From Tahibacter harae (GTDB lineage: Bacteria; Pseudomonadota; Gammaproteobacteria; Xanthomonadales; Rhodanobacteraceae): a stretch of DNA of 64,000 nt. The stretch is taken from positions 62,001 to 126,000 of the forward strand of contig NZ_JANFQO010000007.1 in NCBI RefSeq assembly GCF_024437735.1, read 5' to 3'. Positions 10,421-45,037 of this stretch are shown piece by piece. The stretch's first letter is position 1, and each line of letters begins with the position of its first letter. A model generated the notes under the pieces. That model was not told the DNA's origin and searched no databases. It saw nothing but the letters and a program-made list of their open reading frames with translations. The translations under genes and the position numbers were made by a program.

Positions 10421-11341
10421 CTACGGGTTCTGGTCGAAACCGTCGAGGAACAGGGTCGGCTCGATGCTGCGCTGGTCGCCATTGTCGGCCGGGTTCAGTT
10501 CCGTCTCCGCCATCGCCGGGTTGAGCGCGGCGCTGGCATCGAGCGTGTTCAGCGGCACGCCGGCCTGCAGCGGAATGTCGGCGAAGAACGTCACCGACGC
10601 GCCTGCCGCCAGCATGCCCGGGATCAGCGTATAGCTCCGGTTGCCGGGCTGGGCCGCCGCGCACAGGCCGGACTGGGTGGACTGGCAGCTCCAGCGCACC
10701 GGCGGCGCATCCTGCGGAGAAACAGCGGTGCGCAGGGTCGGCTGGCGCGCACCGTAGGTGCTGTCGTTGCGGAAGCGGATGCTGCAGCGGACGAAGCGCT
10801 CCTGCCGGTTCTGCGGCGCGCAGGCCACGTCGGTGCGCAGGTCCAGCGGCACGTAGATGCGCTGCTTCAGCAGCACGATTTCGTCGCCGGGCCGGGTTTC
10901 GCTGTCGTCGGAAGCGACGCTGGCGGAAAATTGCACATGATTGCGCGCATCGGCGGGAACGCTCATCTGCAGGAGGTAGTCCGCACTGCTGCCGGCGGCC
11001 AGGCTGTCCGCGAGATTGCACTGCGGGTATTGCGTACCCGCGGTGCAGCCGGCGGCGGCGACGAAGCTCAGGTTGTTCGCCGTGGCGACGGTACGCACGC
11101 GCTGCGCCGCATCCAGGCCGCTATTGGTCACCGTGACCAGCAGCAGCACATCCTGTCCGGGCACCAGGCTGGCGGTGGGGGAAATGGCGGCCGCGATACT
11201 GAGATCGACGCTGCCGTAATACCCCTGCGCCTTGAGCAGCGAACTCCAATCCGGTGACAGCGCGGCCGCGGCGGCGGTGGCCGCAAGCCCACAGGCGAAG
11301 AGCGCGCGGCGCAGGCCGCTGTTGCGTGCATTGGAATTCAT
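10421..11341 (-). CDS. Secreted DUF11-like protein with LFLDGFD C-terminal tail
   Basis: The start ATG 11341 has AGGGA nine bases upstream and overlaps the stop of the membrane-protein gene (ATGA). The 306-residue product has a signal-like N-terminus (RRALFACGLAATAAAAAL), then repeats of a domain with the signature VPGQDVLLLVTVTNSGLDAAQRV and AGSSADYLLQMSVPADA. These resemble the DUF11/conserved-repeat Ig-like domains found in bacterial surface proteins. Cysteines are paired in a way that suggests disulfides in the exported protein. The final residues LFLDGFDQNP carry the [IL]FxDGF[DN] tail also seen on the secreted protein at 41292. Function is unknown. It is translationally coupled to the O-antigen-ligase-like gene. 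Confidence 0.75.
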   Translation of the reverse strand: MNSNARNSGLRRALFACGLAATAAAAALSPDWSSLLKAQGYYGSVDLSIAAAISPTASLVPGQDVLLLVTVTNSGLDAAQRVRTVATANNLSFVAAAGCTAGTQYPQCNLADSLAAGSSADYLLQMSVPADARNHVQFSASVASDDSETRPGDEIVLLKQRIYVPLDLRTDVACAPQNRQERFVRCSIRFRNDSTYGARQPTLRTAVSPQDAPPVRWSCQSTQSGLCAAAQPGNRSYTLIPGMLAAGASVTFFADIPLQAGVPLNTLDASAALNPAMAETELNPADNGDQRSIEPTLFLDGFDQNP

Positions 11342-12486
11342 TGACGTCCCTGATACGTGGTTGAAACAGCGGTCTGCCGCGCCAGTAGCCCCAGCAGCAG
11401 GGCTCCCAGCGTCCACACCCATAGTCGTAAAAAGCTGAGTTCCGTGATCGCGAGCAAAACGAATACGAGCAAGGCCGCTGCCGTCGCACACGCCAGCGGC
11501 TGCTCCTCGCAGCACAGGCGCAGCGCACGGCGCCGCATCGTCTCCGCCAGGGCCAACAGCGCCGCAAGACCGGCCGCACCCAGTTCCGCCAGCACTTCCA
11601 GCGCAAGGCTGTGCGGCCAGGGCGTGAGGCGCGGATCCACCAGGGCGGCGGCCGGCACGGCCGAGGACTCCCGGTAGGCAAGGACGAAATTGTGCAGTCC
11701 CACCCCCAAGGGATGTTCGGCGAAGACGTGCAGCGCCGCCTGCCACAGCTGCAGCCGCGCCAGCATCGACGGCAGCAGCGTCGCCGCGGCCATCAGCGCC
11801 AGCAACGCCGCCGCCACCGTCGCCAGCAGCAGCGGCAGCGCGAACAATCTGACGCCGCGGCGCAGCAGTTCCTGCGCGGCGAGCGCGAGCAGCACGGCGC
11901 CCAGCAGCGTCAGCGAATGCAGCCACAGCGCCAGCGCGAGCAACACGGCGGCGGCCGGCGGCCCTAGCCAGCGCGGCGCGGCGGCGCGCACGAAAGGCAG
12001 CAGACAGGCAGTCCAGGCCAGGTCGTTGGGCACCACCAGCCAGGCCGCGCCGCTATCGCGCACCCAGGCGGCGGGTTCGCCGCCCGGCTGGCGCCACGCG
12101 GCGAACGCAAGCAGCGCGATCTGGGCCGCGGCGGCCAGGCCCAGCGCCGGCGCGATCCAGCGCGCCAGCGCCGGCCAGGCATCGCCGCGCACAAGCAGGA
12201 ACCACAGCGGCACCGCCGCAAGCACGGGCACGCTCAAGGCCAGCGAACGGCGCGGGTCCAGCCCCGCGAGCGAAGCCACGGCCGCCACGGCGAGAAAGGC
12301 CAGCAGCGACCATTCCAGCGCGTCCGGCGCGCGGCTCAGGTCGATGCGGTCGCGCCACAGCGCCAGCGCGGTTGCCAGCACCAGGCAGGCCCAGGCCGGC
12401 CCCAGCGTGACATCGGCGCCCTGCAGTGCGAGAAAGCCGGCGAGGCCTGCTGCACTGGCCAGGCCTGCCCCCCGCAGGCCGGCCAC
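11338..12486 (-). CDS. O-antigen ligase/polymerase-like (Wzy_C) membrane protein
   Basis: This 382-residue protein has about ten hydrophobic membrane segments spread over its whole length. The large periplasmic loop contains RLQLWQAALHVFAEHPLGVGLHNF, which matches the signature of the O-antigen ligase/Wzy_C family (WxxAxxxFxxxPxxGxGxxxF), and a histidine in WPHSLALEVLAELG, the conserved PHS/H element. These proteins join or polymerise lipid-linked glycans in the periplasm. No glycosyltransferase cluster surrounds it, so its acceptor could be lipopolysaccharide or a glycoprotein; either is inference. It sits five bases downstream of lysS and overlaps the following secreted-protein gene by ATGA. 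Confidence 0.75.
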   Translation of the reverse strand: MAGLRGAGLASAAGLAGFLALQGADVTLGPAWACLVLATALALWRDRIDLSRAPDALEWSLLAFLAVAAVASLAGLDPRRSLALSVPVLAAVPLWFLLVRGDAWPALARWIAPALGLAAAAQIALLAFAAWRQPGGEPAAWVRDSGAAWLVVPNDLAWTACLLPFVRAAAPRWLGPPAAAVLLALALWLHSLTLLGAVLLALAAQELLRRGVRLFALPLLLATVAAALLALMAAATLLPSMLARLQLWQAALHVFAEHPLGVGLHNFVLAYRESSAVPAAALVDPRLTPWPHSLALEVLAELGAAGLAALLALAETMRRRALRLCCEEQPLACATAAALLVFVLLAITELSFLRLWVWTLGALLLGLLARQTAVSTTYQGRQ

Positions 12487-37081: not shown

Positions 37082-37512
37082 GCGCCGCCGACACCGCGTT
37101 TGCGCTGGATCCGCGCCTGGCCGCCGACTGCATCGTCGTCGGCGAGCTGGGCCTCTCGCGCGTGCTGCTGATGGACGACCTGCGCTTTCCCTGGCTGATC
37201 CTGGTGCCGCGCATCGCCGGACTGCGCGAGCTGGTGGAATTGGCGCGCGAGCAGCAGCACGAGCTGCTGGACGAGATCAACCGCGTCGCCCATGTGCTGC
37301 ATGCGATCGCCCATCCGGACAAGATGAACATAGCCACGCTGGGCAATGTGGTCGCCCAGCTGCATGTGCACGTGATCGCGCGCCACGTGGGCGACGCGGC
37401 CTGGCCGCGGCCGGTCTGGGGTGTGGGCGAACGCATCGCGCATACCGCGGCCGAGCGCGAGCGCGTACTCGGCCTGCTGCGCGCCGGCCTGGCCCTGCCG
37501 CGGCTGGAATGA
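37078..37512 (+). CDS. HIT-family protein (histidine triad-like hydrolase)
   Basis: The 144-residue product has the HIT layout: PRIAGLRELVEL, HAIAHPDKMNIATLGN and, in place of the strict H-x-H-x-H triad, QLHVHVIARHVGDAAW. It keeps the first two histidines, as in the HIT branch with the LHxHVIAR...D..WP pattern. HIT proteins hydrolyse nucleotide derivatives. It overlaps the hydrolase before it (ATGA) and pxpB after it (ATGA), so the three genes are translated together. A specific substrate cannot be assigned. Confidence 0.85.
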   Translation: MSAADTAFALDPRLAADCIVVGELGLSRVLLMDDLRFPWLILVPRIAGLRELVELAREQQHELLDEINRVAHVLHAIAHPDKMNIATLGNVVAQLHVHVIARHVGDAAWPRPVWGVGERIAHTAAERERVLGLLRAGLALPRLE

Positions 37513-38243
37513 ACGCCGCGCCGCGCGCCGAGGCGCTGGGCGACAGCGCCGTGCTGCTGCATTTCGGCGAAGCCATCGACGCGGCGGTCAATGCCCGCGT
37601 CCACGCCGCGGCGCGACATATCGCGGCGCTGCAGCTGCCGGGCATCGTCGAGCTGGTGCCGGCCTATGCCAGCCTGGCGGTGCAGCTGGATCCGGCCTGC
37701 TGGAGCGGCGGCGCGCCCGCGCCGGCGCAGCGCTGCGCCGCGGCGCTGCTCGACGCGCTGGCGGCCGCGCCGGAAGCACGAGGATCATTTTCCACAACAA
37801 TAGAAATTCCCGTCTGCTACGGCGCAGGGTTCGGCCCCGACCTCGACGCCGCCGCCGCGCGCTGCGGCCTGGCCGTGCCGGAACTGGCCGCCCTGCATGC
37901 AGCGGCCGACTACCGCGTCGCCCTGCTCGGCTTCGCGCCGGGTTTTCCGTATCTGCTGGGACTGGATCCGCGCCTGCACCTGCCGCGGCTGGCCACGCCG
38001 CGCACGCGCGTGCCGGCCGGCTCGGTCGCCATCGGCGGCGCCCAGACCGGCATCTACCCGCGCGAACTGCCCGGCGGCTGGAACCTGATCGGCCGCACGC
38101 CGCTGCGCCTGTTCGATGCCGCACGTACGCCGCCCAACCGCATCGCCGCGGGCATGCGCCTGCGTTTCCGCGCGATCACGGCGGAGGAATTCCGCGCGCT
38201 GCAAGCCGAAGAGGACAAGGCGGCCGCGGACAGCACCGCGTAG
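37509..38243 (+). CDS. pxpB: 5-oxoprolinase subunit PxpB (KipI/YbgJ-like)
   Basis: PxpB and PxpC with PxpA convert 5-oxoproline (pyroglutamate) to glutamate with ATP. The 244-residue product has the AHS1/KipI allophanate-hydrolase-like fold, with the cyclophilin-like core: EIPVCYGAGFGPDLDAAAARCGL, YRVALLGFAPGFPYLLGLD, and PRLATPRTRVPAGSVAIGGAQTGIYP. These are the standard KipI signatures. In most genomes pxpB is followed directly by pxpC; here pxpC is about 5 kb away (43305) across two unrelated genes. It is coupled to the HIT gene upstream (ATGA). Confidence 0.92.
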   Translation: MNAAPRAEALGDSAVLLHFGEAIDAAVNARVHAAARHIAALQLPGIVELVPAYASLAVQLDPACWSGGAPAPAQRCAAALLDALAAAPEARGSFSTTIEIPVCYGAGFGPDLDAAAARCGLAVPELAALHAAADYRVALLGFAPGFPYLLGLDPRLHLPRLATPRTRVPAGSVAIGGAQTGIYPRELPGGWNLIGRTPLRLFDAARTPPNRIAAGMRLRFRAITAEEFRALQAEEDKAAADSTA

Positions 38244-38280: not shown

Positions 38281-40989
38281 TCAGCGCCCGGCCAGGGCCT
38301 GCCGCGCCAGCGCGGCCATGCGCTCGCCTTCGCTGTTCTTGAGCCCTTCCACACCGGAGCGCAGCAGCGGCTGCGCCGCGGCGCGGTCGCCGCCCTGCAG
38401 CAGCAGCAGGCCGCGCGCCGCATCCAGCCGCGCCGGCCAGTTGCCGTCGGCGGCAACGGATTCCAGCGCCTTGGCATCCAGGGTCTGCAGCAGCGGCGCC
38501 GCGGCTTCGGTCTGGCCCAGGTCCAGGCGCACGGCGGCCAGCCAGTAGGCCGCGGCCTGGCTCTGCGGATTCTCCGGCTTGAACTGCGCCACCAGCCGCG
38601 CATAGGCCGGCTCCAGCAGGGCCAGCGCCTGGCGCGAATCGCCGCTTTCAAACAGCACCTGGCTCAGGCTGATCGCGGTGACATTGGTGAAGGTGTGTTC
38701 CGGCCCGAACTTGGCGAGGAAGCCCTGGTGCATGCGCTGCGCGTAGTCCAGCGCCTGGGGCCAGTCGTGGCGCTTCACGGCGACATCGAGCAGGTCGCTG
38801 AGCACCATGATGTTGCGGGTGTGGTCCGGCCCGAGCAGCTCCACGATGGTCTTCTGCGCCTGCTTGAGCTGTTCCTCGGCCTTGGCCAGTTCGCCCTGCA
38901 TGGTGTAGGTGCGGGCGATGGCGGCCTTGGCGAAGGCCGGCACCAGGCCGTTGTCGTCGCCGCGGGCGTTGATCTCGGCGATCAGGCTTTCGCCTTCCTG
39001 GCGCGCCTCCGCCAGCTTGCCGTTCTGGGTATAGGCGTAGATCAGGTCCATGCGCATGGAATCGCCGACGGTGAAGTTGTCGGGCTCCGCCTCGCGCTGC
39101 GCCGGCACGGCAATCAGGTATTCGGGCAGGGCCTTGGCGTATTCGCCCTGGTTCATGTGGTACATGCCCCAGGCCGCATTGCGCAGGTAGCGCGAATAGC
39201 TGTCCTGCGCGGCGCCGGTCAGGCGGTCCAGCGTCTGCAGCTGCGTATGCGCCTCGTCGAACTTGGAGGTGCGCGTGAGCACGCGGATCAGCATGGCGCG
39301 GGCGCGCAGCGCGTCCAGGCTGGCCTCGCCCTGGCTGCGTTCGTACAGGGCCAGGGCCTGGCGCGCCTCGGCCTCGGCCTCGGGCAGCAGGTCCAGCATG
39401 TTGAACAGCGTGACCAGGCTGTTGCGGATCGAAGCCTCGGTCTCGGGCTGGCCGGCGAAGCGCCGGGCGATGCGCTCGCGCGCGCCCAGCAGCAGATCCT
39501 TCAGGGTGACGCTCTGCCCCTTGGCCACCAGCAGCGGATTGGAACGGCCGATAAGATCCTCGTTGAGGAAGCGGTTGATCGCCACTGCGCGCTGCAGTTC
39601 CTGGCGCGCCGCATTGCGCGCGCGCAGCGCGGTCTGGTACAGGCCCAGCACGATCAGGATGCCGACGACCAGCGCCGTCATCAGCGCCACCAGGTAAGGC
39701 CGCCGCGCGCGGTTGCGCGCGAGCAGGTCGCGCGCCTGTTCCGCCTGCTGCTCCCGGCGCGCGGTGTGCTCGCGCAGGGCGCGGCGTTGCTCGCGTTCGC
39801 GCAGGCGCGCGGCGAATTCGGCCGCGCTGGCCAGGCGCCGCTGCGGCTCGCCGTCGGTGGCCAGGCGGATGTCCTCGCGCAGCAGGTCGTCGCCGATGTC
39901 CTGTTCCCAGCCCGACACCATGGGCCTGTTGAGACGGCCGGCCAGCAGCTGGTACAGCATGATGCCCAGGGCGAACACGTCGCTCTGCGCCGTCGGCGTA
40001 TGCCCGGCGAACACTTCCGGCGCGATGTACAGCGGCGTGCCCGAGGACGAATCCGCCGCCAGGTTCTGCGTCATGGTCAGGCCCAGCCGGGTGATGCCGA
40101 GCTTTTCCACGCGCTCGGGATCGAGCAGGCGGCCGCTGCCGAAATCGGTCAGGCGGATCAGCCAGCCGCCGTCCTGCGGCGCGATCAGCACGTTGGCGGG
40201 CTTGAGATCCTTGTGCAGCACGCCGACGCTGTGCGCATCGGCCACCGCGTCGGCAATCTGCAGGAACAGCTCCAGGCGCTGCTCCTGGCTGGTCGCGGCC
40301 AGTTCGGTCTCGGCCCATTCCAGCAGGTTCTGCCCGCCGAATTCGCATTCGAGGAAGAACGGCGCGCTTTCAAAATTCCAGTCGATGATGTCGACGAAGT
40401 GGCGGCGGTCCTCCAGGCTTTCCTGCAGCACCCGCGCCAGGGTGACCTCGCGCTTGAGCGCGCGCAGGCGCTCGCCGTCGGCGGCAAACTTGTAGACGCG
40501 CTGCTCGCGCGTCTTGGCGTGTTCGGCCAGCCAGACCTCGCTGCCGCGGTTGCTGCCGAGCTGGCGCCGCAGCAGGAAGTTCTCCCGCCCCGGCACCGGC
40601 TGGCCGGCGCCGACGTCGAGCTGGCTGGCCATGCGCCGGCCCACGGCCACGCGCTCGACCGCGCCATCCAGGCGGTAGCCGACGCGCGGCTGGGTCAGCA
40701 GGCGTTCGGCATTGGCCTCGCCCAGGGCACGGCGCAGCTTGTTGATGGCGTTGGGCAGCACCTTGTCCACGGTGATGCGGCCGGCCCAGACCTCGCGCAG
40801 CAGTTCTTCCTTGGTCACCACTTCGCCGGCATGGCGCAGCAGGTAGAGCAGCACTTCCAGCGCGCGCCGCTCCACGTCAACCGGCAGGCCGGCGACGCGC
40901 AGTTCAAAGCGGGCTTCATCGAATTCGGCCGTGCCGAAGCGGTAGCTGTAGGAAGTTCGTTCGCTGGATTCTGGTTCGTTCTTCATCAT
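38281..40989 (-). CDS. Winged-helix / Ser-Thr protein kinase / TPR membrane protein
   Basis: This 902-residue protein (start ATG 40989) fuses four parts. Residues about 15-112 are an OmpR/PhoB-type winged-helix DNA-binding domain (RRALEVLLYLLRHAGEVVTKEELLREVWAG, VLPNAINKLRRALGE, RVGYRLDG). About 135-400 is a eukaryotic-type kinase: ATP-binding K167, catalytic HKDLKPANVL (D261), DFG (282-284), GTPLYIAPE (323-325). A single membrane helix lies at 432-451. The rest, about 470-902, is helical TPR-like repeats, predicted periplasmic. A membrane protein that binds DNA and phosphorylates is plausible as a CadC/ToxR-like signalling regulator with a kinase. It is divergent from a secreted-protein gene. 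Confidence 0.9.
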   Translation of the reverse strand: MMKNEPESSERTSYSYRFGTAEFDEARFELRVAGLPVDVERRALEVLLYLLRHAGEVVTKEELLREVWAGRITVDKVLPNAINKLRRALGEANAERLLTQPRVGYRLDGAVERVAVGRRMASQLDVGAGQPVPGRENFLLRRQLGSNRGSEVWLAEHAKTREQRVYKFAADGERLRALKREVTLARVLQESLEDRRHFVDIIDWNFESAPFFLECEFGGQNLLEWAETELAATSQEQRLELFLQIADAVADAHSVGVLHKDLKPANVLIAPQDGGWLIRLTDFGSGRLLDPERVEKLGITRLGLTMTQNLAADSSSGTPLYIAPEVFAGHTPTAQSDVFALGIMLYQLLAGRLNRPMVSGWEQDIGDDLLREDIRLATDGEPQRRLASAAEFAARLREREQRRALREHTARREQQAEQARDLLARNRARRPYLVALMTALVVGILIVLGLYQTALRARNAARQELQRAVAINRFLNEDLIGRSNPLLVAKGQSVTLKDLLLGARERIARRFAGQPETEASIRNSLVTLFNMLDLLPEAEAEARQALALYERSQGEASLDALRARAMLIRVLTRTSKFDEAHTQLQTLDRLTGAAQDSYSRYLRNAAWGMYHMNQGEYAKALPEYLIAVPAQREAEPDNFTVGDSMRMDLIYAYTQNGKLAEARQEGESLIAEINARGDDNGLVPAFAKAAIARTYTMQGELAKAEEQLKQAQKTIVELLGPDHTRNIMVLSDLLDVAVKRHDWPQALDYAQRMHQGFLAKFGPEHTFTNVTAISLSQVLFESGDSRQALALLEPAYARLVAQFKPENPQSQAAAYWLAAVRLDLGQTEAAAPLLQTLDAKALESVAADGNWPARLDAARGLLLLQGGDRAAAQPLLRSGVEGLKNSEGERMAALARQALAGR

Positions 40990-41150
40990 TTCTGAACGCG
41001 CTGTACGCCGATGAGCCGTCTGCCGGTGTCGCCCGTGCCGCGGCGCGGCCGCCGCGTGCCTGCTGCCGCGCCCGCCGCCGGCGCCGTTGCGGCGCCGCCC
41101 AGCCCCGATTTCCCGCCGCGCCCAGGCTGCCAGAGCCTTTGGATGCGCGG

Positions 41151-41194
41151 CGTTACCCATCCGTTACTGCGTCGTTATCGGTCCGTGCCTACGA
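41151..41194. promoter_or_regulatory. Candidate operator: 11-bp-spaced CGTTA direct repeats
   Basis: CGTTAC starts at 41151 and 41162, CGTTAT at 41173 and CGTGCC at 41184, each exactly 11 bp apart (one helical turn). Such spacing is the signature of PhoB/OmpR-family winged-helix dimers on DNA, the class present in the divergently encoded kinase. A -10-like TAGCAT lies at 41211-41216 toward the secreted-protein gene. Binding is inferred, not shown. Confidence 0.55.
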
Positions 41195-41241
41195 ATTGCG
41201 CCGCGAACACTAGCATGGGTCACCAGCGTCGGCATCGGTAA

Positions 41242-41254
41242 CTCCGTCACGGAG
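41242..41254. repeat. 13-bp palindrome CTCCGT-C-ACGGAG
   Basis: Perfect 6-bp inverted arms around one base, 38 bp upstream of the secreted-protein start codon, in the same divergent region as the 11-bp repeats. It could be a separate operator; nothing else supports a role. Confidence 0.4.
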
Positions 41255-41291
41255 CAGTCACCGCCGGCGTACGGATGAACGAGGGAAATCC

Positions 41292-42905
41292 ATGCTTAAC
41301 CGAAAACTCACGCTTGCGGTGAGCGCGGCGCTGCTGTGCGCGCCGCTGGCCCAGGCCCAGACCTGGACGGTGGTCGCCGCCGAAAGCGGCAGCATCGTCA
41401 ACGCCAACCTGCCCGGCGCCAGCCGCAGCATCACCGACTATCTCTACGGCGACACCGGCAACGACCAGTTCAGTTTCCGCGTCACCGCGCCCACCGCCAG
41501 CATCGGCTATTGGGCCAACCGCGCCGGCGTGCTGACCCAGTACGCCGCCACCGGCAGCAACGGCGTGCTCGGCCCTGGCCGCAGCGGCGCCGAGAGCGCC
41601 CACCAGTTCCTCAATCTCTACGGCAGCGGCGGCGCCGGCGCAGGCGGCCAGCGCAGCTTCATCGCCCGCGCCGGCGATCCGGCGGTGCCCGCCGGCATCA
41701 GCTACGGCGCATGGCGCTGGGATACCAACCGCAACGTCGAGATCGCGCGCACCTTCGTTTCCGACGCCCTGGGTCCGGGCCTGCCCGGCTGGATCTTCCC
41801 CAATGCCTCGGATTTCGCCGACCTGCGCAGCATGGACGGCGGCAAGGCGCTGCTGGACACCAGCGTGACCAACAGCACCAGCGGCGCCACCAGCCGCCTC
41901 ATCGTCAAGCACGTGCCCGGCCTGGGCAACCAGCCCTGCGTCCGCGCCGGCGCCACCGAAGCAGCGCTGGCGCCGGGCCTGACCCCGGGCGATTCGTTCC
42001 AGACACCGTGGGGCATGGGCAATCTGTCGGTGTCGACCACGGGCCGCGTCTACGCCAATCTCAACGCCAGCGGTTCGCGCGGCGGCATCTGGGAGATCTG
42101 CAACGGCGCGCCGCGCGCGCTGGCCGCCGATGACGACGACGGCCCCCTGGGCCCGGACTTCGGCGTGGATACGGCGCAGTTCATCAACGACTTCTATCCG
42201 GCCTTCCCCGCCCAGGGCGGCCATATCTACTTCTTCGCCAGCTTCCGCGACACGCCGAACGTCACCAGCCGCCTGGGCCTGTTCTGGAACAACGACGCCG
42301 GCAGCGGCAACAAGCCGCTGGCCATGAATGAGGCCACCGGCTTCCACGGCCCGAACTGGGAAAGCACCACCTGGAAGAACTTCACCACCAACACGCTCAG
42401 CGTCGGCGGCCGCTACGCCGCGTTCTACGCCTGCGTGGACACGCCCGACAACGGCGATCCCTGCGGCTACTGGCGCGTGCAGCCAGGCCAGCGCCCGGAG
42501 CTGGTCGCGCTGCAGCTGAGCGTGCCCGGGCCGTTCGGCCCCGAGGCCGGCCGCACCTGGCGCAGCTTCGGCGCCAGCGCCGTGCTGCCCAACGGCGACC
42601 TGCTGCTGGAAGCCGCCACCGATCCGAACAACGAGACCGATCTGTGGCTGCTGGAACCCGGCAAGGCGCCGCGGCGCATCCTGCGGGTGGGCCAGCCCAT
42701 CACCTTCCAGACCACCGGCGGCCCGGTCACGGCCAATGTCTCCAGCTTCGACCTGAGCAACGGCGGCGCGGCCTATGCCCGCGGCATCGACTCCTGGGTT
42801 GGCGCCGACGGCAGCGTGGCGGTGGTGGCCACGCTCTCCGGCTACGGCGAAGTGCTGCTGCGCTCGCGCCCGTCCGACCGGATTTTCAAGGACGGATTCA
42901 ACTGA
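41292..42905 (+). CDS. Secreted protein of unknown function with RIFKDGFN tail
   Basis: The 537-residue product starts at ATG 41292, six bases after GAGGGAA. MLNRKLTLAVSAALLCAPLAQA is a signal peptide. The mature protein is Gly/Asn/Asp/Trp-rich, repeating short motifs such as FxASGSRGGIWEICNG and IYFFASFRDTPNVTSRLGLFW, suggestive of a beta-propeller, with GSTS-like loops. The end RPSDRIFKDGFN carries the [IL]FxDGF[DN] tail shared with the protein at 10421. It lies divergently from the winged-helix kinase, is separated from it by candidate operator repeats, and is followed by a strong terminator. No enzymatic motif was seen. Confidence 0.8.
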   Translation: MLNRKLTLAVSAALLCAPLAQAQTWTVVAAESGSIVNANLPGASRSITDYLYGDTGNDQFSFRVTAPTASIGYWANRAGVLTQYAATGSNGVLGPGRSGAESAHQFLNLYGSGGAGAGGQRSFIARAGDPAVPAGISYGAWRWDTNRNVEIARTFVSDALGPGLPGWIFPNASDFADLRSMDGGKALLDTSVTNSTSGATSRLIVKHVPGLGNQPCVRAGATEAALAPGLTPGDSFQTPWGMGNLSVSTTGRVYANLNASGSRGGIWEICNGAPRALAADDDDGPLGPDFGVDTAQFINDFYPAFPAQGGHIYFFASFRDTPNVTSRLGLFWNNDAGSGNKPLAMNEATGFHGPNWESTTWKNFTTNTLSVGGRYAAFYACVDTPDNGDPCGYWRVQPGQRPELVALQLSVPGPFGPEAGRTWRSFGASAVLPNGDLLLEAATDPNNETDLWLLEPGKAPRRILRVGQPITFQTTGGPVTANVSSFDLSNGGAAYARGIDSWVGADGSVAVVATLSGYGEVLLRSRPSDRIFKDGFN

Positions 42906-43304: not shown

Positions 43305-44282
43305 ATGATCGAAGTGCTGCGCGCCGGCCTGCTCAGCAGCGTGCAGGACCAGGGCCGCCGCGGCCATGCGGCGATCGGCGTAGGCCGCGCCGGCGCGATG
43401 GATGCGGATGCGGCGAAACTGGCGAACTGGCTGGCCGGCAATGAGGCCGACGCCGCCGTCATCGAAATCACCCTCAGCGGCCCCGCGCTGCGCTTTGCCT
43501 GCGCGGCCACGGTTGCGCTCTGCGGTGCCGAGGCGGAACTGCGCCTGGACGGCGAACGCATCGCCGGCTGGCGGCCGCAGGCCGTTGCCGCCGGCAGCGT
43601 GCTGGACTGCGGCGGACTGCGCCGCGGCGCCCGCCTCTACCTGGCTGTGGCCGGCGGCATCGCCGTGGCGCCGGTGCTGGGCAGCCGCAGCGTCGATATC
43701 AACGCCGCACTGGGCCCCTGCGAAGGCCGCGCGCTGCGCGCCGGCGACCGGCTGCCGCTGGCCGCCGAAGACGGCCTGCGCCTCCGCCGCACGCCGGCCT
43801 GGTCGCTGGCGCCGGCGCTCTGGTTCGACCCGGATCCGCAGCGACGCCTGCGCCTGCTGCCCGGCGCGCACTACGCCGAACTCGAACCCGAAGCGCAGCA
43901 GGCGCTGCAGACCGCAGCCTTCCGCATCGCGCCCGAATCCAACCGCGTAGGGCTGCGTCTGCAAGGCGCGGCGCTGCGCCTGAGCCGGCCGCTGGAACTG
44001 GTTTCCGCCGGCGTGACCCGGGGCACCGTGCAGTTGCCGCCGGGCGGCCAGCCCATCATGCTCGCGGCCGAACATCCGACCACCGGCGGCTATCCGCGCA
44101 TCGCCCACCTGATCGAAGCCGATCAGTCGCGCCTGGGCCAGTACCGGCCCGGCGACAGCCTGCGCCTGCGCCTGGTCGGCACGGACGAAGCCGAAGCCCT
44201 GCGCGTCCGCCGCGCCCAGGCGCTGGCGCGGGTACACCACTACATCGAACAGAAGCTGCTGGAGATCCGATGCGGCGCATAG
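43305..44282 (+). CDS. pxpC: 5-oxoprolinase subunit PxpC
   Basis: The 325-residue product is the biotin-independent AHS2/KipA-like (YbgK-type) half of the 5-oxoprolinase. Signatures: IEVLRAGLLSSVQDQGRRGHA, the GRAGAMDADAAKLANWLAGNEADAAVIEITLSGP stretch, GSRSVDINAALGP, and PGGQPIMLAAEHPTTGGYPRIAHLIEADQ in the final third. Start ATG 43305 has only a weak ribosome site. The 3' end overlaps pxpA by 13 bases, so pxpC and pxpA are co-translated. The gap upstream holds a terminator that separates it from the secreted-protein gene. Confidence 0.94.
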   Translation: MIEVLRAGLLSSVQDQGRRGHAAIGVGRAGAMDADAAKLANWLAGNEADAAVIEITLSGPALRFACAATVALCGAEAELRLDGERIAGWRPQAVAAGSVLDCGGLRRGARLYLAVAGGIAVAPVLGSRSVDINAALGPCEGRALRAGDRLPLAAEDGLRLRRTPAWSLAPALWFDPDPQRRLRLLPGAHYAELEPEAQQALQTAAFRIAPESNRVGLRLQGAALRLSRPLELVSAGVTRGTVQLPPGGQPIMLAAEHPTTGGYPRIAHLIEADQSRLGQYRPGDSLRLRLVGTDEAEALRVRRAQALARVHHYIEQKLLEIRCGA

Positions 44283-45037
44283 ACCTCAACTGCGACCTGG
44301 GCGAGTCCTACGGCGCCTGGCAGATGGGCCAGGACGAAGCCGTGCTGGACGCGGTCAGCTCGGCCAATATCGCCTGCGGCTTCCACGCGGGCGACCCCGG
44401 CGTGATGCGCCGCACCGTGCAACTGGCCGCGGCCCGCGGCGTCGTCATCGGCGCGCATCCTTCCCTGCCCGACCTGCAGGGCTTCGGCCGGCGCGAGATG
44501 GCGCTGAGTGCCGACGAGGCACGCGACCTGGTGCTCTACCAGATTGGCGCATTGTGGTCTTTTGCAAAAAGCGCAGGCGTGCCGCTGCGCCACGTCAAGC
44601 CCCACGGCGCGCTGTACAACATGGCCGCGCGCGACGCCGCGCTGGCCGCCGCCATCGCCGCGGCCGTGGCGGAATTCGACCGCGGCCTGATCCTGGTCGG
44701 CCTGGCCGGCAGCGCGCTGCTGGCGGCCGGGCGCAATGCCGGCCTGCACGTGGCCGCGGAAGCCTTCTGCGACCGCCGCTACCGCGCCGACGGCAGCCTG
44801 ACGCCGCGGCGCGAGGCAGGATCCGTCATCCATGACGTCGATGCCGCCGTGGCCCAGGGCCTGTCCATCGCCTTGCACGGCCGCGCCGTCGCTGGCGACG
44901 GCAGCGAAGTGGCGATCAGCGCGGATACCTTGTGCATACACGGCGACAAGCCCGATGCGGCGGAATTCGCCCGCCGCCTGCGCGCGGAACTGGAACGCGC
45001 CGGTGTCGCGGTCGCAGCCCTGGGAGCGGCCGCATGA
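44270..45037 (+). CDS. pxpA: 5-oxoprolinase subunit PxpA (LamB/YcsF family)
   Basis: The 255-residue product is the LamB/YcsF TIM-barrel subunit that is required with PxpB and PxpC to open the 5-oxoproline ring. It opens with DLNCDLGESYGAW and SANIACGFHAGDP (metal/active-site motifs of the family) and has HPSLPDLQGFGRREMALS, PLRHVKPHGALYNMA, and DTLCIHGDKPDA near the end. Length is normal. It overlaps pxpC by 13 bases and the DUF969 gene by four (ATGA), in a five-gene unit that ends with pcp. Confidence 0.95.
   Translation: MRRIDLNCDLGESYGAWQMGQDEAVLDAVSSANIACGFHAGDPGVMRRTVQLAAARGVVIGAHPSLPDLQGFGRREMALSADEARDLVLYQIGALWSFAKSAGVPLRHVKPHGALYNMAARDAALAAAIAAAVAEFDRGLILVGLAGSALLAAGRNAGLHVAAEAFCDRRYRADGSLTPRREAGSVIHDVDAAVAQGLSIALHGRAVAGDGSEVAISADTLCIHGDKPDAAEFARRLRAELERAGVAVAALGAAA

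Follow-up and report, generated by a model that had tools for sequence, protein, structure and literature searches.

The divergent locus and its repeat array

A divergent gene pair lies at positions 38281 to 42905 of the window, the 64,000-nucleotide stretch of Tahibacter harae contig NZ_JANFQO010000007.1 (positions 62,001 to 126,000) that was analysed here. The gene on the minus strand (38281..40989, with its ATG at 40989) encodes P0001, a protein of 902 amino acids (aa) with a winged helix, a Hanks-type kinase domain, a membrane helix and tetratricopeptide repeats (TPR). The gene on the plus strand (41292..42905) encodes P0002, an exported protein of 537 aa that ends in DRIFKDGFN and has no family match in Pfam at E values up to 1 or in NCBIfam at E values up to 0.1. 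The two gene starts are separated by 302 bp, and the subject of this work is a short array of direct repeats in this gap, considered as a candidate operator for the winged helix of P0001 itself.

Three hexamers can be read on the plus strand, CGTTAC (41151..41156), CGTTAC (41162..41167) and CGTTAT (41173..41178), followed by a terminal element, CGTGCCTAC (41184..41192, plus strand; family form CGT[GC][ACG][GC][GT]AC), which takes the -35 position in the promoter of the divergent gene. A -10-like TAGCAT (41211..41216, plus strand) lies 60 bp from where the first box begins. Next to the -35/-10 region the locus thus has direct repeats at 11 bp, in the manner of the tandem operators of the OmpR/PhoB type, and no canonical sigma-70 promoter (-35/-10 pair) was found between 40900 and 41320. 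P0001 may also be read as a protein of 959 aa from 41160, in which case its start would fall within the array.

The original prediction, made from the sequence of this DNA, had placed four boxes here at an exact spacing of 11 bp. All its positions, including those of CGTGCC at 41184 and TAGCAT at 41211, are right and three of the boxes stand, but CGTGCC is the beginning of the separate and more conserved terminal element. The spacing was borne out as well: the pattern CGTTAY-N5-CGTTAY-N5-CGTTAY, with up to 3 mismatches, occurs at a single site in the window, in two overlapping matches, with 0.04 matches expected by chance, and two matches were obtained in none of 100 shuffles.

Domain organisation of P0001

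The OmpR/CadC-type winged-helix DNA-binding domain occupies approximately residues 14-107 (40669..40950, minus strand) and matches CadC, PhoB and other chains of the OmpR family; Pfam Trans_reg_C is recognised at residues 36-107 (E 2.6e-13), and the alignment to CadC chain 5ju7 has an E value of 2.7e-8. The order of its secondary structure elements is bbbb-aaa-bb in a low-confidence AF2 model, which covered residues 1-450 with a mean pLDDT of 47 and served for this order alone. The recognition helix, VDKVLPNAINKLRRAL, comprises residues 74-89 (40723..40770, minus strand).

The Hanks-type kinase domain follows at residues 141-353 (39931..40569, minus strand; Pfam Pkinase, E 3.8e-25) and has the complete catalytic set of K, HxD, N, DFG and APE (K167, H259-K-D261, N266, D282-F-G and A323-P-E). 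Across the 74 kinases compared in this work (see below) H259 and N266 are kept in all 74 proteins, K167 and D261 in 73 each and D282 in 72; G284, P324 and E325 are kept in 72-74, and K260 and F283 in 66 each. Hydropathy points to a single candidate membrane helix, at about residues 431-455 (39625..39699, minus strand). It is followed by the C-terminal TPR part (38284..39624, minus strand; Pfam TPR_12, E 2.8e-15), which is predicted to be periplasmic because there is one membrane helix and the N-terminal part is cytoplasmic. No receiver domain with a phospho-aspartate was present in the matches to Pfam, which comprised 13 families at E values up to 1. The Pfam matches, the catalytic residues and the single hydrophobic stretch agree with what had been predicted for this protein, namely an OmpR/PhoB-type winged helix, a complete kinase, one membrane helix and TPRs. 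The presence of a full kinase between the winged helix and the membrane helix breaks the CadC/ToxR-like pattern.

Similarity to parts of P0001 was seen in 64 stretches of the same genome, which also encodes 33 Trans_reg_C domains, 19 of them in open frames longer than 600 codons.

Conservation of the 11-bp period among relatives

Relatives of P0001 were sought at three levels. The order-level search covered 398 genomes, of which 52 had a strong relative (E up to 1e-60); the family-level search covered 233 genomes, 36 of them with a match at E values up to 1e-90; and a class-wide draw of 369 genomes gave 4 with a match at E values up to 1e-50, two of these outside the order. The comparison included 74 upstream regions, i.e. 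the window and 73 of 74 fetched loci, since the contig of locus L123 ends within the winged helix. The order-level matches that were left unfetched were those in genomes G004, G016, G034 and G299 and on contig G281:C1, in which the winged helix is partly or wholly absent, and a fragment on G382:C82.

Periodicity was measured as the AT-weighted self-match of 7-mers within each upstream region. A lag of 11 passed the repeat threshold in 54 of the 74 regions, in comparison to 2-17 regions for the other lags from 6 to 30, and in 40 rounds of dinucleotide shuffling the number of regions at lag 11 averaged 7.1 and peaked at 14. After removal of kinases at least 70% identical, lag 11 was still found in 32 of 45 regions, versus 0-11 at other lags. 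When the repeat was scored together with the terminal element (score of at least 13), 40 of the 74 loci had the array at 11 bp, and the numbers at periods 8, 9, 10, 12, 13, 14 and 15 were 0, 0, 0, 1, 0, 0 and 1, respectively; since the sequences scored are also those from which the terminal element had been defined, the comparison from lag to lag is the fair part of this score. The automatic register was off for L074, L077 and L089; L074 was shifted by one base for the strict score and the others are below threshold. Among the 34 loci without an array by this score it is visible by eye, in another register or in a degenerate form, in e.g. L077, L079, L082, L083, L085, L088 and L089.

Toward the divergent gene the elements come in the order of two to three copies of the 6-mer at 11 bp, the terminal element 11 bp further on and, about 17-18 bp beyond it, a -10-like element; for the CGTTAC group this is TAGNNT, and members of the CTTGAA group often have [CG]AGCAT. 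The array is complete in G291, for instance, and takes a two-box form in G332. For the 23 sequences of the CGTTAC group, TAGNNT begins at +60 from the first box in 14 and at +61 in 2; in the remainder it is found at +50 in one and at +65 in one, and is absent within 30-110 in five. Unlike this spacing, the distance from the array to the kinase start varies; the kinase distances are approximate for L072, whose TTG start is probably misplaced, and for L077, L088, L097 and L100, whose starts were set to a non-start codon. Lack of conservation of the repeats in relatives with both kinase and secreted-protein gene had been named as grounds for rejecting the original prediction, and the comparison shows instead an 11-bp array that is conserved and phased to the -10-like element.

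Box type and the recognition helix

The repeated 6-mer is CGTTAC in the clade of the window's kinase and CGTTAG, CTTGAA or CGTGTG in others, with CTTCAG, CTTCCG and C[AG]TTTG as single cases. CGTTAC and CTTGAA are both found in families f1 and f2, and both may occur in one genome: of the two kinases of G411, L081 has CGTTAC and L093 CTTGAA, and the same is true of L077 and L108 in G332. Likewise, G420 combines a degenerate CGTTAC type (L082) with CGTGTG (L114), and G418 does so in L083 and L117. Box type goes with the clade of the kinase and not with the species, which is also the outcome of the search of other genomes for kinase plus 11-bp box that had been suggested together with the original prediction.

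Each main box type is paired with its own recognition helix, VDKVLPNA with CGTTAC, VDNVLANA with CGTTAG, VDHVLATA with CTTGAA and VEGxLTNA with CGTGTG. In the 40 strict loci residue 80 goes with the second base of the box: 23 loci combine N80 with G, 15 combine T80 with T, and one combines Q80 with T; this rule fits 39 of the 40 loci, the exception being L129 (N80 with A). Residues K76 and N80 of P0001, two positions at which the helix varies along with the box, align to a His and a Gln in CadC, named here His66 and Gln70 after the residue numbers in an excerpt of PMC5430869. In the docking model, as given in that excerpt, His66, Gln70 and Lys95 of CadC make base-specific contacts (PMC5430869). 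In a quickly made tree that excluded the winged helix, the box and helix traits each change four times and have an identical distribution in the 45 labelled loci; the labels were assigned by hand, and this set does not include L079, L082, L083, L085, L129 or any locus that had no box label.

Occurrence of the array in genomes with and without the kinase

The exact two-box pattern was matched 14 times in the 8 genomes of the genus group. Twelve of the matches belong to arrays at a kinase or an exported-protein gene, including one next to a kinase fragment, and the other two, G291:C7 (L154) and G504:C53 (L168), are away from kinase or P0002 loci. The pattern had no exact match in G324 and G503, in which no kinase was found. 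The window's own array fits it with one mismatch only. Another one-mismatch site in the same genome, C18:35882, was taken as chance because the backward control pattern has 3 matches in this genome. For the second group, CTTCAAG-N4-CTTCAAG with up to 1 mismatch gave 8 matches in 7 genomes of family f2, and 7 of them are at the kinase, one per genome.

P0002-like genes were found in 23 stretches, in 18 of the 233 family genomes. By the number of upstream box letters out of 12, the array is present (at least 11) in 12 stretches, degenerate (9-10) in 4, all linked to the kinase, and missing (7-9) in 6, the assignment at a score of 9 being a matter of judgement; the remaining stretch, the G416 copy (L181), lies close to the end of its contig and could not be scored upstream. 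Three P0002-like genes of kinase-bearing genomes, G504:C69, G279:C10 and G279:C13, are not linked to the kinase and have the array, with TAG at +65 rather than +60 in G279:C10. Both copies of kinase-less G324 are without it, and together with the own-genome paralog G000:C27 and three pieces on G502:C17 they make up the 6 stretches that have none. In G504 the array copy at the target keeps the terminal element CGTGCCTAC, and the copy beside the kinase reads CGTGTTCAG.

The array of G502 is downstream of the kinase and ahead of a P0002-like fragment, whose homology was recognised by eye. This locus (L198, G502:C14) has the appearance of one in which the kinase gene was inverted and the operator stayed with the target. 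At L147 (G382:C82) a winged-helix fragment runs straight into a TPR-end fragment, an in-frame stop lies within the match, and the locus has CGTTAC-type boxes of its own; it has the look of a decayed second kinase gene.

Divergent targets and gene neighbourhood

The genes divergent to the kinases often encode exported proteins, of families that are unrelated between clades. Target genes were chosen by a rough signal-peptide heuristic, which picked a LytTR protein at L088 and gave no exported gene in 22 of 72 loci, yet L077 and L087 among these hold P0002 homologs. The targets with a Pfam match include proteins with RCC1 repeats (L093, L108), an OmpA domain (L096, L098), kelch (L114) and ankyrin/MORN repeats (L109), and further DUF11 (L121), CsgG with a peptidoglycan-binding domain (L080) and DUF3466-FIMAH (L112, just below the strict array score). 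L094, L097 and L099 have small lipoprotein-like targets without a Pfam match.

In the window the kinase/exported-protein pair sits between pxpB (37509-38243) and pxpC (43305-44282), with pxpA at 44270-45037, and hence splits the 5-oxoprolinase genes. No pxpB or pxpC match was found in the 37 loci of relatives examined, most of which cover one side only. Exported proteins of the window (41214-42905, plus strand; 10421-12052, minus strand) and of several relatives frequently terminate in a short sequence of the type D-x-I/L-F-x-x-G-F-D/E/N, a possible sorting signal at the C-terminus.

Proposed mechanism and alternative explanations

It is likely that the winged helix of P0001 binds the array and controls the divergent gene. 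DNA binding by this domain is well supported by the co-variation of box and helix and by the distribution of the array, and the comparisons support the one-protein membrane signalling device at a secreted-protein gene that was originally predicted. P0001 would then be a membrane-anchored one-component regulator, a transcription factor that is itself a Ser/Thr kinase, with its cytoplasmic winged helix placed head-to-tail on the array (41151-41192) at a period of 11 bp. The bound protein would most likely aid RNA polymerase at a promoter that has the -10-like TAGCAT and no good -35, and the gene of the 537-aa exported protein would be switched on; given binding and control, the layout makes such activation probable. 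Sensing is probably the task of the TPR part, which would lie outside the inner membrane, and the most likely substrate of the kinase, placed between this part and the winged helix, is P0001 itself, whose dimerisation or DNA binding may change on phosphorylation. If binding and control are granted, the conserved catalytic residues and the analogy to PknH-EmbR leave gating by phosphorylation evenly balanced.

Several observations weigh against this interpretation. No array was found by the strict score in 34 of the 74 loci, and some of these have none even by eye; neither of the two winged-helix kinases from outside the order has one. The co-variation of helix and box comes down to four independent pairs, only two of them on starred branches of the tree, a number too small for significance in a sign test; the co-variation is therefore consistent, not statistically proven. 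Diverged P0002-like copies, namely the paralog in the window's own genome (G000:C27) and the copy in three pieces on G502:C17, lack the array in spite of a kinase in the genome. Only a single kinase-less genome with the target gene, G324, is available, and one of its copies scores 9/12, the same as the linked copy L182 that was called degenerate. G504 is a metagenome-assembled genome, in which a wrong bin or join is possible. Finally, G279 and G504 have arrays beside the kinase in spite of a P0002-like gene located elsewhere, which makes autoregulation a further possibility.

The array might indeed serve mainly the promoter of the kinase, the exported-protein gene being a bystander, as the two genomes just mentioned would allow. 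On the exported-gene side, however, the array keeps a fixed spacing to the -10-like element (+60/61 in 16 of 23 sequences) and on the kinase side its distance to the gene start varies, three unlinked exported-protein genes retain the array with no kinase adjoining, and the array of G502 adjoins the P0002-like fragment, by-eye homology as it is, on the downstream side of the kinase; autoregulation as the main role is accordingly judged improbable. A different DNA-binding regulator, either a response regulator or a CadC-like protein, could also occupy the array, with the winged helix of the kinase acting elsewhere or not at all. Candidates are at hand among the 33 Trans_reg_C domains of the genome, and tandem sites at 11 bp are general in the OmpR/PhoB family, but the box type tracks the kinase clade even between paralogous kinases of one genome, the box changes together with residues of the recognition helix, and exact arrays are almost confined to kinase or target and missing from the two kinase-less genomes. 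This makes another regulator very improbable, and a host-wide regulator in particular is disfavoured by paralogs with different boxes in the same genome.

With control by P0001 itself as the preferred explanation, the sign of the control has to be considered. The terminal element overlaps the -35 position and the bound protein could therefore also block polymerase, repressing the divergent gene until it is released on phosphorylation. A tandem array that abuts the -35 from upstream, with no recognisable -35 and a fixed distance to the -10, is rather the layout of OmpR/PhoB-type activators, and repression is regarded as unlikely. Chance can be left aside as an origin of the repeats: GC-rich sequence yields many short repeats at every lag, but the shuffles and the comparison with other lags are strongly contrary and rule it out for practical purposes, and the 11-bp period is conserved in relatives.

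A broader picture is put forward tentatively. P0001 may belong to a family of receptor kinases that bind DNA themselves: a single polypeptide would sense at the envelope, act as a kinase and occupy an operator of its own, and its phosphorylation state would directly gate occupancy of the tandem 11-bp boxes. Changes in residues 76/80 and in the box would re-wire specificity, and one clade after another would have acquired new targets among unrelated exported proteins (P0002-like, RCC1, OmpA-domain, kelch and small lipoproteins).

Comparison with known systems

The PhoB/OmpR response regulators bind tandem 11-bp direct repeats that abut the -35. P0001 shares with them the winged-helix family and the tandem 11-bp direct repeats, and differs in that it has no receiver domain, is anchored in the membrane and is fused to a Ser/Thr kinase. 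The resemblance to CadC/ToxR-like regulators lies in the cytoplasmic N-terminal winged helix of the OmpR type, the one membrane helix and the periplasmic sensor, as predicted for P0001. The target operon of these regulators is found beside the regulator gene, as the putative target is at this locus, but they do not contain the complete Hanks-type kinase that P0001 has between its DNA-binding domain and the membrane. The sites differ as well, being two head-to-head Cad1 sites in the case of CadC, according to the excerpt of PMC5430869, and head-to-tail 11-bp sites here.

In PknH-EmbR, as in P0001, a Ser/Thr kinase is linked to an OmpR-type DNA-binding domain, but there kinase and transcription factor are separate proteins and here they are one. 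In the AfsK-AfsR system of Streptomyces a Ser/Thr kinase acts on a winged-helix factor with TPRs; unlike P0001 it consists of two proteins, with a SARP/NB-ARC regulator as a soluble transcription factor. Phosphorylation of EmbR stimulates its binding to promoters, and bacterial Ser/Thr kinases usually reach gene expression indirectly, via separate substrate transcription factors, as summarised in part of a review (PMC4601284). A CadC-like regulator fused with a Hanks-type kinase and provided with a private, clade-specific operator was not found among the listed open-access titles and abstract openings, subscription papers and preprints being outside this scope. Each part is already known, and within this scope the combination appears to be new.

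The joint change of the box and the DNA-reading helix suggests that sensing, phosphorylation and gene control may be united in one protein. As kinase and transcription factor would be a single protein with an evident operator, a single gene and some 60 bp of DNA would suffice to test the full path from envelope to promoter. The clade-wise changes of box and helix residues would in addition offer a small code, provided by nature, for DNA recognition by winged helices.

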